Shown piece by piece: positions 3,401 to 35,066 of a stretch of DNA of 64,000 nucleotides. The stretch's first letter is position 1; the number at the start of each line of letters is the position of its first letter. Position numbers and translations under genes: made by a program. The DNA is from Imperialibacter roseus (GTDB lineage Bacteria; Bacteroidota; Bacteroidia; Cytophagales; Cyclobacteriaceae): the NCBI RefSeq assembly GCF_032999765.1, contig NZ_CP136051.1, positions 5,102,501 to 5,166,500 on the forward strand. The letters are read 5' to 3'. The notes under the pieces were generated by a model, which was not told the origin of the DNA, did not search any database, and saw only the letters and a program-made list of their open reading frames with translations.

Positions 3401-6025
3401 CTACAAAACAAACCTGTAGGTGAACTTGAAAAGGAAAATATTGTGCCCCCGTTCATCAAAGTCAAAAGAGTATTTGTCATGATCAGGATGGGAGTCGTAG
3501 AAGGCACCATTTCTTTCCCTTGTCCAGACCAGGAACAGTGTGGAGCCAGGTATATACTCCCATCGAACGACCATATTGGAGCGGAACTGTCCAAAATTGA
3601 AATCCGGTTTTCCGAAGGAGTAATCGGACGTGCCATCGTTGTTTTCATCAACAAAATATTGGTCGTTGCCGGTTGACATGACACTGGCAGGAAGCGGAAT
3701 GTAACGCTGACTGTACTCCGAGGCGCTGGCGTCGGTGATGGATTTAAACTCGCTATATTTTCCTGAAGTGCCGAAAGGCTGCCCGTAGTATTGAACCGAA
3801 AGATTCGGAGTGATCATGTACGTAGCCCTGAACACAACCCTGGCCGTGGTCTGGTCTATTGTCCCCATTATGTACCTGCTACCATCATCTGTGGTGGGCG
3901 ACGAAACATATTGTAATTGATTCTTGCTGGTTTCAAAGGTTGGAGAAACAGAAATGTTCAAAGCGTTGGTTGGCCTCAGTGTAAAATTAAAATATAAGCC
4001 AGCATATCTGCGATAATTCTCCCTACCGACCCCAAACTCAGGATTTACGTTGACATGAAATTTTTTCCTTGGATCGGTGCCTGTGTAAGCCCAGAAATTG
4101 AACATGCCGGGATAAGCAATGGTTGGGCCGCCCCTCAAATCAGCGTTGGAAGCGCTTCGGACTCGGTAGGTAATGCCACCGCCCGACTGCCAAAAGTTTT
4201 TGAACTCGGCGTGCGCATTCACATTGTATCCTTCGTTGAGGCTACGCCAGCCAAAATCGTACTCTTTCCACTGGTTGATATTATAGCGCTGCCACCGGGT
4301 TATGCCTTTGGCCTGCAGTATCCGGTATTGCATCCAGAACCACTGCGAAATATTGTCTGTTTGCGCCAGGTAACCAATATCATTCAATTCGAACCCCGGC
4401 GACTGCCAAACAATGCCGAGGTCGCTGATAAGGTTACCACTTTTCTTCCCCACAATCACCTCACCGCCTGTGCCTGTTAGCGACGTGCGTGTTGGGTCGT
4501 ACTCGGTGTGATCGTTATCGGGCCGCTGAAAATAACGCTCAGACGACAGCTGCGTATTGGAAATGGCCTCAGCACTTCCCTTTACATGGCTCATCATTAT
4601 TTTGCTGCTGACGTAGTATTTTCTTTCACTCCAGTTGTGCAGAAAGTCGACACCTGCAGAGTACGCCGCATCATGCAGCCAATCCAGCTGCTGGTCTTTA
4701 ATATTGCGGTTTACGCCAGTTACAATGCCGCCAAGTATCGAATTTCCCTTGTTAATATCCTGCTGCCCCCGGGCTACAAAGTAATTAGTGAACGGCTCAA
4801 TTGCCTCTTTTCTGATATGGCCGAGGCTATCAATTTCCGCATACTCTTTCGAGGTCGCACTTTCAAGGATTCCCCAGGAGAATCCTTTTTTATTCTTGCC
4901 AGTCAGCTTGGCAGCGCCAAGAATGGTTGTCCGGTTGTTGGGCTTTACGTATTCGTCGACAGCATCGGGGCCAGAAGCATCCGTATCTACCCCTCCTTGC
5001 GGCTGCCTGCCAATCCGGCGTGAGTAGAACAGGATGTTGTTATCGTTTTGCGAAACAGGAAAATTGAGGGTATTGTTTCCTTCGGTAAAGAAGGGTCTTC
5101 GTTCCTGAAAAAAAAGCTCGAAGGCGCTCAGATTGACCTGCGAAGGATCCGCCTCCACCTGTCCAAAATCGGGGTTAACGGTAAGGTCAAGTGTGACGTC
5201 GCTGGTGATTCCGATTTTTGCGTCAAGGCCCACGTCTGCTCCGGCAGAACGGCCAGTTAAGTAAGGGTTGCCCTCTTCCTTTTCAAAGCGCTCCATCTTT
5301 GTAACTACATACGGCTGAATCTCCAGCTGCTTCTGTGGCTTTATTCCCTTAATTCCAGTCATTTCACCCATCAGGTGGACATAACCAGCAGCATCAGGAG
5401 GGATATACTGCCACTGCGAGCGCTCCTGGTTGCGGAAGTAAAGGCGCTGCACTTGTATGCCCCAGGTTAACTCTGGTTTTTCAGCAAATCGGAGCTGGCT
5501 TAGCGGAATTCTTATTTCGGCGACCCACCCTTCTTCATCAATGCTTGTTTTGAGATACCAAATAGGATCCCAACTGTCGTCCCAATTGTCGCCGTTGTTC
5601 GAAATGTACTCATCTCCCTTTACACCGGAGACGGAGGAAGTGAAAGAAAACGCAGTTCTTTTGTCGTAGTAGCTGTCAATATTAATTTCTACCCAGTCGC
5701 CATCGAATCCGTCTCTCCGTGACATCCGCCTTACTATTTTGTCGGGCTCAGGGTCGTAGCACCTGAAAGCCACGTAGAGGTTTTTAGCGTCGTAAAGTAT
5801 CTTAAACTTAGTCTGCACTGTGGCTGGCTTGCCTTTGTCGGGGTTTACCTGCCGAAAATCGCCCCCGGCCCAGTCTACCTCTTCCCACACAGGGTCGTTG
5901 ATGTAGCCGTCGATTTCGGGAGCGGCTCCAATAATGTGAGCCGTGGTGTATGATTTAGTAGAGTTTGACTGAGCCTGAGCAAAAAAATGACCGGCCACCA
6001 ATAAAAATAAAATGGTATGCTTCAT
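3401..6025 (-). CDS. DUF5916 outer-membrane protein with N-terminal CBM9-like domain
   Basis: Residues 1-18 form a signal peptide ending AQA. Residues about 28-220 look like a family-9 carbohydrate-binding-like domain (from PEIDGYINDPVWEEVDW). The rest is the DUF5916 region, rich in alternating aromatic strands and ending in the outer-membrane barrel signature KFTYRFVL with a terminal hydrophobic residue. A conserved stretch is FFQERRPFFTEGNNTLNFP. At 874 residues it is full length for the family. The function is not established; an outer-membrane role in handling a glycan or another bound ligand is inferred from the domain pair. It is monocistronic and points away from the neighbouring siroheme operon. 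An 8-bp inverted repeat lies just before the start codon. Confidence 0.85.
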   Translation of the reverse strand: MKHTILFLLVAGHFFAQAQSNSTKSYTTAHIIGAAPEIDGYINDPVWEEVDWAGGDFRQVNPDKGKPATVQTKFKILYDAKNLYVAFRCYDPEPDKIVRRMSRRDGFDGDWVEINIDSYYDKRTAFSFTSSVSGVKGDEYISNNGDNWDDSWDPIWYLKTSIDEEGWVAEIRIPLSQLRFAEKPELTWGIQVQRLYFRNQERSQWQYIPPDAAGYVHLMGEMTGIKGIKPQKQLEIQPYVVTKMERFEKEEGNPYLTGRSAGADVGLDAKIGITSDVTLDLTVNPDFGQVEADPSQVNLSAFELFFQERRPFFTEGNNTLNFPVSQNDNNILFYSRRIGRQPQGGVDTDASGPDAVDEYVKPNNRTTILGAAKLTGKNKKGFSWGILESATSKEYAEIDSLGHIRKEAIEPFTNYFVARGQQDINKGNSILGGIVTGVNRNIKDQQLDWLHDAAYSAGVDFLHNWSERKYYVSSKIMMSHVKGSAEAISNTQLSSERYFQRPDNDHTEYDPTRTSLTGTGGEVIVGKKSGNLISDLGIVWQSPGFELNDIGYLAQTDNISQWFWMQYRILQAKGITRWQRYNINQWKEYDFGWRSLNEGYNVNAHAEFKNFWQSGGGITYRVRSASNADLRGGPTIAYPGMFNFWAYTGTDPRKKFHVNVNPEFGVGRENYRRYAGLYFNFTLRPTNALNISVSPTFETSKNQLQYVSSPTTDDGSRYIMGTIDQTTARVVFRATYMITPNLSVQYYGQPFGTSGKYSEFKSITDASASEYSQRYIPLPASVMSTGNDQYFVDENNDGTSDYSFGKPDFNFGQFRSNMVVRWEYIPGSTLFLVWTRERNGAFYDSHPDHDKYSFDFDERGHNIFLFKFTYRFVL

Positions 6026-11563: not shown

Positions 11564-11595
11564 AAAAAGGGCCGTTTTGAAGTGGCCCTTTTTTG
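11564..11595 (+). terminator. Rho-independent terminator after the amidohydrolase
   Basis: AAAAAGGGCC (11564-11573) pairs with GGCCCTTTTT (11584-11593) across a 10-nt loop and runs into T residues, 20 bp after the stop codon. Confidence 0.88.
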
Positions 11596-11677
11596 TTTCA
11601 TGAGTAAATCCCCGTTCTACTTACCTCCACAGTCACTTAAAAAGACATTATTCGTATATTTGAGAAAACCATGGTTT

Positions 11678-11908
11678 ATGAAGGCATTTGAGTTCACAAC
11701 CAAGATTAAAAAGAATAAGATCGATATTCCCTCCAGGCTTCAGAATGAAATTGCTCAATCTGAAGATGGAGCTGCGAGAGTAATTATTTTACTGGAAGAG
11801 TCGCCCATTCGTGATGAAAGTGCGCTAGGGCAGCTGGTGGTTGAAAAATTTCTTGAAGGTTATGATGAGTCTGATGCTATTTATGACACCTACAAGATAG
11901 ATGAGTAG
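11678..11908 (+). CDS. Putative antitoxin of a MazEF/PemIK-like pair
   Basis: A 76-residue acidic protein beginning MKAFEFTTKIKKNKIDIPSR. The ATG at 11678 is chosen over the farther 11582, because the latter lies inside the preceding terminator. Its stop overlaps the start of a MazF/PemK-fold protein by 8 bp, the usual antitoxin-first arrangement. I do not recognise the DNA-binding fold with certainty; the antitoxin role is inferred from position and size. Confidence 0.7.
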   Translation: MKAFEFTTKIKKNKIDIPSRLQNEIAQSEDGAARVIILLEESPIRDESALGQLVVEKFLEGYDESDAIYDTYKIDE

Positions 11909-12236
11909 GCTCAGTTTTGGTGATGTTGTGCTCCTGAAATTTCCTTTCACTGATAATTCTGCATCAAAAAGAAGGCCTCCGCTAGTCATCAGCGATTTTG
12001 AAGACGGCGATATTATCGTTTGCAGAATCACCAGCAGGCTATACCAAATCGCTTTCGATATTGTCCTGACTAACTGGGAAAAAGCAGGTTTAAAACTCCC
12101 CTCAATAGTACGAATCCATAAAATAGCTACACTGACCAAGAACATGGTCGAATTGAAAATGGGAGAAATTCATAGGACGGACAAAGATAAGGCAAGAGAG
12201 CTAGTCGGTAAGTTGTCTGAGAGTAACGCTCACTAG
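11901..12236 (+). CDS. MazF/PemK-family endoribonuclease toxin
   Basis: A type II toxin of the MazF/PemK fold; characterised members cleave mRNA at short sequences. The family opening GDVVLLKFPFTDNSASKRRPPLVIS is visible in the first 30 residues: it combines GDVV, PFTD and the RPPLVI strand. The 111-residue length is standard. Translation is coupled to the upstream antitoxin (8-bp overlap, ATG inside the antitoxin stop region). Confidence 0.85.
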   Translation: MSRLSFGDVVLLKFPFTDNSASKRRPPLVISDFEDGDIIVCRITSRLYQIAFDIVLTNWEKAGLKLPSIVRIHKIATLTKNMVELKMGEIHRTDKDKARELVGKLSESNAH

Positions 12237-12323: not shown

Positions 12324-13073
12324 ATGAAAAAATTAATCCTCCTCAGCCTCGCCATTCTATCTGCAACAGGCATCTCTCTTGCCCAAGACCAGTACATCTT
12401 CCCATTCGGCGGTGGTTCCAATAAGTTATTCATCAAAGAAATAATCAAACTCACCGGTAAGGAGCGCCCGAAGATCTGCTACCTGCCAACCGCCTCAGGC
12501 GACAGCGAACAAGGAATTATCCGCTTTTACGAGCTGGTGCATGACCTGTCAGTGGAGCCGTCGGTGCAAAAGGTGTGGATCAGCTCTTACAACCAGAAGC
12601 AGACTTTCGAAGAGGTGCTCTTAAATGTCGATGCTATTTATGTCGGCGGCGGTAATACCCTCAACATGATGGCCATCTGGAAGGCACAGGGTATTGACCT
12701 AGTACTCAAAAAAGCGCTTGAAAAGGGTATCATCCTGGCTGGCGGCAGTGCTGGCTCACTTTGCTGGTTCGATAATGGCACCACCGACTCCCGCCCCATC
12801 GAGTTGAGCGTAGTGGAAGGCCTTGGATTTTTACCCTACAGCCACAGCCCACACTACGATGCTGAGGAATTTCGCAGGCCGTTGTACATGAAAAACATCG
12901 AAAACGGCATTTTCAAAGCTGGCTACGCCATGGACAACTACTCAGGCATCATTTTCAAGAATGGCAAGCCCTTCAAGGTGGTGGCCACCAAGCCCGAAGC
13001 CAATTGCTACTTCGTGTCGATGAAGGATGGCAAAGTAGTAGAAGAGAAGCTGGAGAAGGTGATTTTGGAGTGA
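12324..13073 (+). CDS. Exported peptidase E (S51 family)
   Basis: A serine dipeptidase-like protein of the S51 family, which includes alpha-aspartyl dipeptidase and cyanophycinase. The nucleophile elbow GGSAGSLCWFDNGTTDS and the strand motif YVGGGNTLNMM are present. The ATG at 12324 is preferred over 12249 because it starts a clear signal peptide (MKKLILLSLAILSATGISLA), so the mature enzyme is periplasmic or secreted. The gene's last codons, K-V-I-L-E-stop, recur beyond the mobile mystery cassette at 14311-14328, which suggests this gene's 3' end was the insertion target. Confidence 0.87.
   Translation: MKKLILLSLAILSATGISLAQDQYIFPFGGGSNKLFIKEIIKLTGKERPKICYLPTASGDSEQGIIRFYELVHDLSVEPSVQKVWISSYNQKQTFEEVLLNVDAIYVGGGNTLNMMAIWKAQGIDLVLKKALEKGIILAGGSAGSLCWFDNGTTDSRPIELSVVEGLGFLPYSHSPHYDAEEFRRPLYMKNIENGIFKAGYAMDNYSGIIFKNGKPFKVVATKPEANCYFVSMKDGKVVEEKLEKVILE
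13047..13069 (+). repeat. Left direct repeat flanking the mobile mystery cassette
   Basis: This 23-bp stretch inside the 3' end of the peptidase E gene matches 14302-14324 at 20 of 23 positions, and its last 15 bp (GAAGGTGATTTTGGA) are identical. Both copies read K-V-I-L-E followed by a stop codon. Confidence 0.7.
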
Positions 13074-13165
13074 GCTGGCCTATCTCGCTCCAAAAAATCC
13101 CGTGGTTCGTGAAGCTATTTCCACGCTTAGTACTTTTATATATATCCAGGCGCAATCCTTTCGTC

Positions 13166-13218
13166 AGGTTATAAGCTGACAATTCACTTGATTTTGTCAA
13201 ATTATAACCTTACTTTTG
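13166..13218 (+). promoter_or_regulatory. Promoter and operator of the mobile mystery A/B genes
   Basis: Arms 13166-13182 and 13194-13210 form a 17-bp inverted repeat (15 of 17 paired; outer arm AGGTTATAA) around an 11-bp spacer. A Bacteroidota-type -7 element TACTTTTG follows directly at 13211-13218, with TTG at 13188-13190 as a possible -33 element. A repressor on the repeat would block RNA polymerase, and the HTH protein encoded next is the obvious candidate. Confidence 0.65.
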
Positions 13219-13249
13219 TATTATAAAAGTCAGGCTATATCCTTACATA

Positions 13250-13708
13250 ATGAAAGCTAAAAGGCTACAGTTAGATCAACTCGAAAGAAAACTAAAGGTA
13301 TATTCGAGCATCAAAAGCACGCCTATTCCCCCAACGGGTTGGATAAAAACCGTTCGACTAGCCTTGGGTATTTCGCTACAGCAAGTAGCTACCAAGCTCT
13401 CCATAACCAGACAGAGCGTCCTTGAAATAGAGAATAGGGAGAAAAACGGGAGCATCACCATCAAGTCATTGCGTGAAGCGGCCAATGCCCTGGATATGGA
13501 TTTGGTATATGGTTTTGTGCCAAAGGATGGCTCACTGGATGCGCTTGTTGAAAGAAAGGCCAGAGAACTCGCCACGAAAATTGTGCGCCGAACTTCCAAT
13601 ACCATGAAGCTGGAAGCTCAGGAAAATTCAGAGTCAAGGTTAAGAATGGCCATATCGGAAAGGGCATCTGCGCTAAAAAGTGAAATGCCAAAGGTGTTAT
13701 GGGATTAG
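13250..13708 (+). CDS. Mobile mystery protein A (HTH regulator)
   Basis: It matches the TIGR02612-type mobile mystery protein A: a basic N-terminal region (RLQLDQLERKL), the segment PPTGWIKTVRLALGISLQQV, and an Xre-like helix-turn-helix at about residues 43-62 (LQQVATKLSITRQSVLEIEN). The family always occurs with protein B and has no established biochemical role. By analogy with Fic-based toxin pairs it may be antitoxin and autorepressor. It overlaps the next gene by 10 bp and sits behind a palindromic promoter. Confidence 0.85.
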   Translation: MKAKRLQLDQLERKLKVYSSIKSTPIPPTGWIKTVRLALGISLQQVATKLSITRQSVLEIENREKNGSITIKSLREAANALDMDLVYGFVPKDGSLDALVERKARELATKIVRRTSNTMKLEAQENSESRLRMAISERASALKSEMPKVLWD

Positions 13709-14295
13709 ATTTTGAATACATCAACGGTCAAACCCCGCTGGATGAGGAGGAGAGGGAGGGACTTTTGATAGAAACGATAGCAACAAGGACTGAATTGGAT
13801 GAATTCGAGCAGCAAAACATTGAAGATGCCATTCAGTGGACTTTGGGCCGTTCTTTCAAGCCTGAAACAATTTTGACTGAGTCGTTTATACGAGGCCTGC
13901 ACCGGCGGATGTATAAAAATGTATGGAGCTGGGCAGGTGAATTTAGAAGGACAGATAAAAATATTGGGATAGACAAATGGCAAATCGCCACTGCTCTAAA
14001 GGCACTTTGTGACGACGCGGCATTTTGGATTAAAAACGAAACCTATTCGCCGGATGAGACGGCCATACGGTTTAAACATCGGCTTGTCAGCATCCATTGT
14101 TTTCCAAATGGTAATGGTCGACACAGTCGATTAATGGCAGACGTAATTATTGACAAAATATTTAAGCAACCCGTATTTACCTGGGGAGCTGGCGATCTTG
14201 CCAAGCTAAGCGACAGCAGAAAAGAATATTTGCTAGCATTAAAAGAAGCAGACAAAGGTCGGCTGGATGAACTCTTAAGGTTTGTCCGGTCATAA
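13699..14295 (+). CDS. Mobile mystery protein B (Fic-domain protein)
   Basis: A Fic-fold protein of the TIGR02613 type. Fic enzymes transfer AMP or a related group to target proteins. The core motif is HCFPNGNGRHSR at residues 133-144: the catalytic His133 and the GNGR loop are kept, but Asn137 replaces the usual Asp/Glu that binds Mg2+. The central segment RGLHRRMYKNVWSWAGEFR and the helix around IDEFEQQNIEDAIQW-like positions 31-47 fit the family. It is co-translated with protein A (10-bp overlap). A toxin or modifier role is inference. Confidence 0.85.
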   Translation: MGLDFEYINGQTPLDEEEREGLLIETIATRTELDEFEQQNIEDAIQWTLGRSFKPETILTESFIRGLHRRMYKNVWSWAGEFRRTDKNIGIDKWQIATALKALCDDAAFWIKNETYSPDETAIRFKHRLVSIHCFPNGNGRHSRLMADVIIDKIFKQPVFTWGAGDLAKLSDSRKEYLLALKEADKGRLDELLRFVRS

Positions 14296-14301
14296 GAACC
14301 A

Positions 14302-14324
14302 AAGCGGCGGAAGGTGATTTTGGA
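14302..14324 (+). repeat. Right direct repeat flanking the mobile mystery cassette
   Basis: It matches 13047-13069 at 20 of 23 positions, is followed by a TAA in the same relative frame (14326-14328), and lies 6 bp after the stop of mobile mystery B. It has no coding role here. Confidence 0.7.
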
Positions 14325-14380
14325 ATAATTATCTTTAAAGCCCGAAGTGCTATATTCGGCCATTTATCAAACCAGTCAGT

Positions 14381-15013
14381 ATGAAGTTCACTCTTATCGG
14401 GGTTATTTTTTGCTCTTCGCTGCTTTCGTGCGCTGCCAACGACGAGCGCTACCTGTTTTTTCTGCACAACAAGTGGTTAGAAGATCATGAGTTTAATGAA
14501 GGTCATCCCAAATACGGCAGGGCTGAGTACCAGGAGATCGTAAGCGCCTTCAAGAAAGAAGGTTTTACGGTGATCACTGAAAAGCGCCAGCCCAATACCG
14601 ACGAGAAAGCTTACGCCCGCAGAGTGAAGGGGCAGATCGATAGTCTACTGCAAATGGGTGTTGAGTCAGTTGAAATCACGGTAGTTGGCACGTCTAAGGG
14701 CGGATTTATTGCACAGTATGTTTCTACCTACGCCAGAAACGAACAGCTGAATTTTGTTTTTATCGGCAGCTCCTTTAAAGGGCTGGTGGAGCAAATTCCT
14801 GACATTGACCTGTGTGGTAATATCCTGGCGATCAACGAAAAAACTGACCATGGCTCTGTGTCTCTTGCTGGCAGAATAGAAAAGTCCACCTGCCATATAG
14901 CGCATTTCAAAAACATCGAGCTCAACACCGGCAAAGAGCACGGCTTCCTCTTTCCACTGATGAATGAGTGGTTTGAGCCTGCTGTGAAGTGGGCCAGAGA
15001 AGATTACCAGTAA
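14381..15013 (+). CDS. Small lipoprotein with alpha/beta-hydrolase fold
   Basis: A lipoprotein signal peptide ends in the lipobox LLSC at about residues 14-17, so the protein should be anchored to a membrane facing the periplasm. The body (210 residues) has the nucleophile-elbow pattern VGTSKGGFIAQYV and a late His in KEHGFLFP, which together suggest an alpha/beta hydrolase such as an esterase. The substrate is unknown. It lies just beyond the mobile mystery cassette, with a promoter-like TATATTCG at 14351-14358, and ends at a REP hairpin. Confidence 0.7.
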   Translation: MKFTLIGVIFCSSLLSCAANDERYLFFLHNKWLEDHEFNEGHPKYGRAEYQEIVSAFKKEGFTVITEKRQPNTDEKAYARRVKGQIDSLLQMGVESVEITVVGTSKGGFIAQYVSTYARNEQLNFVFIGSSFKGLVEQIPDIDLCGNILAINEKTDHGSVSLAGRIEKSTCHIAHFKNIELNTGKEHGFLFPLMNEWFEPAVKWAREDYQ

Positions 15014-30274: not shown

Positions 30275-30342
30275 CCAGTGTGGGGAAACTCACACTGGAA
30301 CGCCTATTTTTCAACATTCATTGCGGGTGTGAAGACACACCC
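30275..30342. repeat. REP hairpin pair upstream of the RAYT gene
   Basis: First hairpin: CCAGTGTG (30275-30282) and CACACTGG (30291-30298) with loop GGGAAACT. Second: GGGTGTG-AAGA-CACACCC (30325-30342). Both stems are perfect. The second shares its AAGA loop and GTG/CAC core with copies at 15.0, 31.0 and 47.3 kb. Confidence 0.8.
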
Positions 30343-30972: not shown

Positions 30973-30979
30973 ACGCCAC

Positions 30980-30997
30980 GGGTGTGAAGACACACCC
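30980..30997. repeat. REP hairpin downstream of the RAYT gene
   Basis: GGGTGTG-AAGA-CACACCC, 8 bp after the RAYT stop, is identical to 30325-30342 over all 18 bases. Confidence 0.85.
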
Positions 30998-34952: not shown

Positions 34953-34970
34953 CATCTTTTGAATACAATT

Positions 34971-35034
34971 GTCATCTTGAGCTTGTCGAAAGAGATTATT
35001 GAAACCAAATCGTCTTCGACAAGCTCAGACTGAC
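34971..35034. repeat. Interspersed inverted repeat (AGCTTGTCGAA type)
   Basis: The 20-bp arms 34971-34990 and 35015-35034 match at 17 of 20 positions around a 24-bp loop. The core AGCTTGTCGAA / TTCGACAAGCT is a repeat word often seen in intergenic DNA of this phylum. It lies between two co-directional genes and could form an RNA hairpin. Confidence 0.7.
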
Positions 35035-35066
35035 ATCCCTTCTTTAAAATTTCTTTTTTAAACTTA

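Follow-up and report, generated by a model that had tools for sequence, protein, structure and literature searches.

Integrative or cis-mobilisable elements insert at gene 3' ends. The loci considered here share with them the gene-end insertion, the direct repeats and the accretion, but the unit holds no integrase, there is no constant attachment core, and the length of the repeat varies widely. A second relation is with restriction-modification (R-M) systems, for which insertion with a long target duplication has been described (Nobusato 2000 and Furuta 2010, as cited in PMC3874152). There too one finds a small selfish two-gene unit, no transposase, and long direct repeats of variable length; the present case differs in its cargo, a Fic-type pair along with other toxin-antitoxin (TA) and defence genes, in having its border at a stop codon, and in its tandem arrays and diverged copies. 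Homology-facilitated illegitimate recombination has been proposed for the T6SS effector-immunity arrays of Vibrio cholerae, and PMC5361080 describes homology on one side, an illegitimate join on the other and stepwise build-up, much as we propose below. In those arrays the anchor lies upstream and the effector gene is displaced, whereas here the host gene is intact and its end is copied. Finally, a table in PMC2701414 lists xre partners of Fic_Doc. The XRE-Fic TA pairs resemble ours in that a helix-turn-helix (HTH) gene overlaps a Fic gene behind an operator-rich promoter.

The window, a 64,000-nucleotide stretch of the Imperialibacter roseus genome, contains one mobile mystery A/B gene pair (Table 1). 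Our main reading, to which we give a probability of roughly 0.55, is that A and B together with an operator array are a TA-like cassette that inserted directly after a host gene, leaving the gene's 3' end duplicated beyond the cassette. That insertion took place behind a gene and duplicated the gene's end is well supported by the sequence comparisons in Algoriphagus aquimarinus and relatives, and is probable in the window, where it rests on a 23-bp copy. We are more tentative about a broader proposal, that the 3' ends of host genes act as portable homology arms, so that TA and defence cassettes of the Bacteroidota travel between species with a neighbour's gene end, enter exactly behind that gene, and form integrase-free arrays punctuated by gene-end fragments. 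Such a footprint bears on how TA and similar defence modules that encode no recombinase are able to spread. It supplies exact borders and the relative order of insertions, it makes the route testable by donor allele and by predicted empty sites, and it suggests a computational border finder that seeks fragments of the neighbour's 3' end.

Table 1. Features of the cassette locus, in window positions.
Feature	Position	Strand	Remarks
Peptidase S51 family gene (PepE/cyanophycinase-like)	12324..13073	+	3' end is the repeat; Pfam PF03575, 126.8 bits against a cut-off of 23.9
Left repeat copy, native	13047..13069	+	final codons of the host gene; same in G001
Putative operator 1	13164..13179	+	TCAGGTTATAAGCTGA
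Putative operator 2	13197..13212	+	between CTTG (13187-13190) and TACTTTTG (13211-13218)
Putative operator 3	13230..13245	+	just 5' of the A start codon
Mobile mystery protein A, XRE-type HTH	13250..13708	+	TIGR02612, 141.3 bits against a cut-off of 122.6; HTH_3
Mobile mystery protein B, Fic-domain	13699..14295	+	TIGR02613, 252.9 bits against a cut-off of 124.4; PF02661
Right repeat copy	14302..14324	+	6 bases 3' of the B stop codon; missing between the G001 flanking genes
Downstream host gene	14381..15013	+	G001 ortholog starts 145 bp past the peptidase stop codon

A preliminary description of this DNA had reported that a 23-bp word at the end of a peptidase E gene recurs beyond B with 20 of 23 matches and an identical 15-bp core, and that both copies read K-V-I-L-E and then a stop. 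A repeat search of the window and a search of the whole genome confirm the recurrence. The first pairs 13040-13069 with 14295-14324 (30 nt, 80%), with the exact 15-mer GAAGGTGATTTTGGA starting at 13055 and 14310; in the second, which allowed up to three mismatches, the 23-mer occurs twice in 6.75 Mb, both times at this locus. The K-V-I-L-E reading is likewise evident in the sequence, the stops being TGA on the left and TAA (14326-14328) on the right, and the right copy's frame is that of the B stop codon. Between the copies are a 90-bp spacer, the operators and the two genes, and since both proteins score above their NCBIfam cut-offs, the claim that a mobile mystery A/B pair is bracketed by the repeat also stands. 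The name peptidase E stood only as far as the S51 family assigned by Pfam, as the host gene scores below the cut-offs of both the NCBIfam peptidase E and cyanophycinase models.

Might the 23-bp match be due to chance, or to some other short repeat, even if gene-end duplication is real elsewhere? The word is short, and in order-3 Markov simulations of the window an exact 15-mer same-strand repeat within 1.5 kb arose in 2 of 20, and a 20-of-23 near-repeat of any kind in 1 of 10; the real window has two exact 15-mer pairs within 1.5 kb and four such near-repeats. Because simulated windows also yield repeats, the occurrence of some repeat in 64 kb is not very rare by chance, and it is the placement at the cassette borders that is unusual. 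The word's confinement to two sites in the genome, and the position of the right copy, in frame just after the B stop codon, both argue against coincidence, as does the finding that only 0.2% of 430 mispaired A/B-locus flanks score as high as the window's repeat, 15 being the maximum they reach. Another short repeat was considered as the source of the right copy because in G001, the only other member of the genus in the genome set compared, the peptidase gene is preceded by an inverted-repeat element that begins GAAGGTGATTTT; that candidate was weakened when no end of this element was found within the 64-kb window. Taken together, we regard a match by chance or through another short repeat as improbable.

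Several other features of the window may be recorded here. An exact 19-bp direct repeat, its copies 655 bp apart, occupies 30324-30342 and 30979-30997. A REP-like inverted repeat of the TTTCGACAGGCTCAA type occurs at 34970-35037 and upstream of the G001 peptidase gene, the two being 75% alike over 73 bp. Just 5' of the peptidase gene is a second TA-like pair, a PemK/MazF-family toxin with a small upstream ORF (11582-12236), which is missing at the same place in G001; no flanking repeats were found around it (score 8).

In G001 the peptidase ortholog, 96% identical in protein sequence, is followed by the same downstream gene at the distance given in Table 1; neither A/B nor a second repeat copy was found between these two genes, and a family search of the genome for A returned none. 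The gene end, its stop codon and the 7 bases that follow (TGAGCTGGCC) are common to G001 and the window, so the left copy is the native one. Where the preliminary description had allowed that the unit kept or replaced the terminus of the gene, the terminus was kept. The description had also proposed that an empty locus with one copy of the repeat, in a relative without A/B, would prove insertion, and that relatives lacking A/B yet carrying both copies would speak against insertion. G001 has one copy only and no A/B, but it was rejected as a clean empty site, as its spacer holds two palindromes, TCAGACTATATCCTGA-N17-TCAGGTTATAGCCTGA, set 33 bp apart exactly as the operators of the window are. 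Since G001 keeps these A-type operators, insertion in the window cannot be proved from G001, and the simplest reading is that the A/B pair predates the split and was afterwards deleted in G001, whose spacer would be a relic of the deletion. We note that on the reverse strand of locus L125, at 5371-5657 and beside an intact A/B copy, a second gene-end copy runs into two operators without A/B, a tandem state that resembles G001.

What kind of pair is the cargo? A precedes B, and the two genes overlap by 10 bp. The Fic domain of B scores 39.3 bits with PF02661 against a cut-off of 24, and among solved structures B matches FICD and NmFic at E about 1e-3; for A no solved structure matched at E <= 0.01, and B had no match in the phage records. 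The canonical Fic AMP transferase motif is HxFx(D/E)GN(G/K)R. All 41 distinct B proteins instead carry HxFxNGNGR, with N in place of the canonical D/E, as do 16 of 19 plasmid B proteins, the remaining three giving no match to the motif expression. Thus B has the Fic domain without the canonical catalytic motif of the AMP transferases, and because of the N at the D/E position AMP transfer may not be its reaction. In this the pair is unlike the XRE-Fic pairs. In the literature searched, no paper contained both 'mobile mystery' and 'Fic'.

The three putative operators of the window have a constant 33-bp spacing, and the CTTG and TACTTTTG words of Table 1, read by eye, fit the Bacteroidota promoter consensus with a 20-nt spacer. 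A decayed fourth operator at 13131 or 13135 was considered and rejected, the matches being poor. At least one pair of palindromes 33 bp apart lies upstream of A in 46 of 54 A loci, most of which were fetched by the operator pattern itself and four of which are identical DNA drawn from two collections; of the 16 A loci in the family set, 8 have such a pair. The recognition helix of A contains QS at 44 of the 46 loci with a palindrome pair and at 3 of the 8 without, an association that fits autoregulation by A through the putative operators. An overlapping pair with putative operators at its promoter has the look of a type II TA system, and A and B may serve as an addiction module.

The preliminary description had recommended comparing the ends of other mobile mystery A/B pairs. 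From 67 loci, 15 from the family search besides the window's own and all 52 from the operator pattern, we retained the 46 with both genes and enough flank, and 42 after four duplicates were dropped. For these and the window, 400 bp upstream of A were compared with 250 bp downstream of B, and random segments of equal size, from those loci of the set that were long enough, were used as controls. Direct repeats scoring at least 15 occur at 10 of the 43 loci, a set that includes the window and, being mostly fetched by operator pattern, is biased to that operator class; none of the 145 control segments reaches this score (maximum 12). The ten are L082 (144 bp), L028 (95), L129 (94), L084 (94), L125 (84), L106 (63), L039 (51), L033 (48), L035 (21) and the window (15), and gapped alignment lengthens several of the repeats. 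On present evidence four of the ten are gene ends, those of the window, L082, L084 and, by our own reading, L125. The repeats of L033 and L106 look like dispersed repeats; at L033 one repeat recurs four times, in full or in part, around other genes. At L028 a 95-bp non-coding repeat is present three times and bounds first A/B and then a nucleotidyltransferase/HEPN-like pair, named by eye. At L257 (G128), too, a 95-bp repeat in three copies bounds A/B and a nucleotidyltransferase/HEPN-like pair, all within 3 kb.

The other 33 of the 43 loci have no flanking repeat scoring 15 or more. Nor do any of 19 plasmid A/B loci, where the best score is 14 and no tRNA genes were found, and where L244 has a 17-bp match, tRNA-like by eye, on both sides with one mismatch. 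Rhizobial plasmid cassettes are discrete blocks found in many contexts: when 16 loci were compared in pairs, the best-matching stretch stopped 0-221 bp upstream of A and no more than 140 bp from the end of B, the exception being L244 and L245, which share 527 bp. Because most A/B pairs and all 19 plasmid loci lack the repeat, gene-end duplication is not the universal end of the cassette; it is one footprint or route among others, and is documented in the Bacteroidota. On the Rhizobium ruizarguesonis plasmid of L252, A/B lie behind genes annotated as DUF6088, AbiEii-family and NTP-transferase, all in one direction.

At L082 the right copy corresponds to the final 46 codons and the stop codon of a 292-aa gene on the other strand. 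Because the left of the two 144-bp copies abuts operator 1, and the right one follows directly after the B stop codon, the cassette at this locus is exactly the operators, A and B. No empty site was found for L082 among 60 genomes, the left-flank gene not being near the gene in the relatives fetched, which left no usable synteny, nor was one found for the L028 neighbour among 58 genomes, from which only distant homologs were returned.

An empty site and a filled one can be compared in Algoriphagus aquimarinus and relatives. Locus L084 lies in Algoriphagus aquimarinus G262, where the order is a PhyH-family gene; B and A, exactly behind the PhyH stop codon; a copy of the last ~125 bp of the gene; ParDE; a longer, interrupted copy (about 455 bp); two further genes; and the MFS transporter region. 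In G387 the PhyH gene is followed by an intact ParDE, a gene-end copy, a 334-aa gene, another gene-end copy, a DUF1016/YhcG nuclease and the MFS transporter, and there is no A/B behind the gene in the stretch examined; ParE and ParD are 95% and 94% identical to those of G262. In G410 no gene stands between the PhyH gene and the MFS transporter found at the close of the other two arrays; this is the empty site of the whole array. A different set is found in G409: a histidine-kinase-like gene, a gene-end copy, an R-M methylase and others. Across these genomes, then, copies of the PhyH gene end separate ParDE, DUF1016 nuclease and R-M-like genes.

The junctions of G262 and G387 can be set side by side. 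Positions 1263-2499 of G262, counted behind the gene, are collinear over 1.24 kb with positions -125 to 1085 of G387 (87.6% identity over 1238 bp), so that what sets G262 apart from G387 here is A/B plus a single additional gene end. Both junctions are at the stop codon. The native TGA of G262 is followed by the tail of A/B, and the TGA of the copy by TTCGGA(A/T)AAAGTA, nearly the same bases as those behind the native stop codon of G387. We have here long direct repeats and a one-copy relative without the insert, as expected of an insertion with long target duplication, and the earlier notion of a small mobile unit entering at a gene's 3' end is borne out by this comparison; for the window itself, G001 is unable to prove it. 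Alternatively, an ancestor of G387 may have had both copies, with A/B since lost precisely. In both G387 and G262 the outer side of the outermost cassette lacks a gene-end copy, which is not what a strict rule of one copy per insertion predicts.

How might such a footprint be produced? We suppose that DNA from a relative would bring in a donor gene end together with the cassette, that the donor gene end would recombine with the recipient's homologous gene end, and that the far side of the cassette would join illegitimately, slightly upstream of the recipient's stop codon. The product would be gene, cassette and gene end, in which the border always falls at the stop codon while the length of the repeat varies; if the process were repeated at one gene, arrays of cassettes separated by gene-end copies would result. 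The short copy of the window would have originated by the same process. This route, homology-facilitated illegitimate recombination carrying a donor gene end, is unproven, and we prefer it to duplication in situ.

Duplication in situ is the main rival: the cassette itself would insert and copy the end of its target gene, as has been proposed for some R-M systems. That the repeats vary from tens to hundreds of bp around a TA-like cargo without a transposase is in keeping with it, and for R-M insertions PMC3874152 describes duplications that vary in length, on a scale of 100 bp. Copies made in place are expected to be identical at birth, yet those seen here, which may be old, differ by 13-17% in a coding-like pattern. 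Differences between fragment and intact gene fall at third codon positions in 14 of 19 cases at L082 and in 13 of 19 and 32 of 46 in the two G262 fragments. Together these make 59 of 84, a share clearly above one third and modestly above the 57% of an assumed half-neutral case (pooled p 0.009; singly 0.06 to 0.22). We counted this third-position pattern, which is as in orthologs, in favour of the main reading. Of the changes unique to the fragments 11 of 23 are at third positions, against 13 of 19 unique to the genes, so the fragments have been relaxed since they were copied. This weaker bias and the modest size of the third-position excess we counted against donor import.

A related issue is which allele the G262 fragments descend from. 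At about 85-120 bases before the stop codon both fragments, aligned and compared by eye, read like the G387 and G410 genes and unlike G262's own gene, which reads like that of G409; in that part they resemble another lineage's allele, a point against duplication in situ. Over the last 90 bases the first fragment shares 87% identity with its own gene and 83% with the gene of G387; for the second the values are 85% and 79%. The first matches its own gene about as well as it does any other gene compared, in keeping with duplication in situ, and we counted the lack of any closer relation to G387 over these bases against donor import. The allele signal along the fragments is mixed, as they are G387-like at 85-120 bases but not over the last 90. 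On balance we hold duplication in situ to be unlikely, while keeping it ahead of the other rivals.

Could a recombinase encoded elsewhere have used the gene ends as attachment sites, A/B being the cargo left between them? Site-specific integration in trans would be suited by a border that falls precisely on the stop codon and by cassettes accreting in tandem at a single gene end. The repeats, however, run from 23 to about 450 bp and the host genes differ, and no recombinase gene is present in the window's 1.25-kb unit, in which A and B are the sole recognised genes and no constant attachment core was seen. We think such integration very improbable. An insertion sequence or transposon is also not indicated in the window unit, as no transposase was recognised there and no inverted repeat has its arms at the borders of the unit.

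A-type operators are also met away from A/B. Among IMG/VR viral contigs with two A-type palindromes, 43 have them at 33-bp spacing (L132-L174), 27 at 32 and 8 at 34 (one contig being shared), and none at 38. By tblastn (1e-4) neither A nor B was found in the 43 fetched stretches, and HTH_3 exceeds its cut-off in one of these 43 records, many of which are fragments. Titration of A, or a phage regulator, are possible explanations of A-like operators on phages. Among the 52 GTDB stretches with an operator pair, 11 have no A/B nearby (L080, L088, L092, L095, L099, L101, L108, L109, L111, L121 and L126), and B had no match (E <= 1e-10) in the 10 of their genomes that were searched. Several of these operator arrays without A/B adjoin other TA-like genes, as in Roseivirga (L109), where arrays lie behind a gene that by eye is VapC-like and one that is HigA-like.
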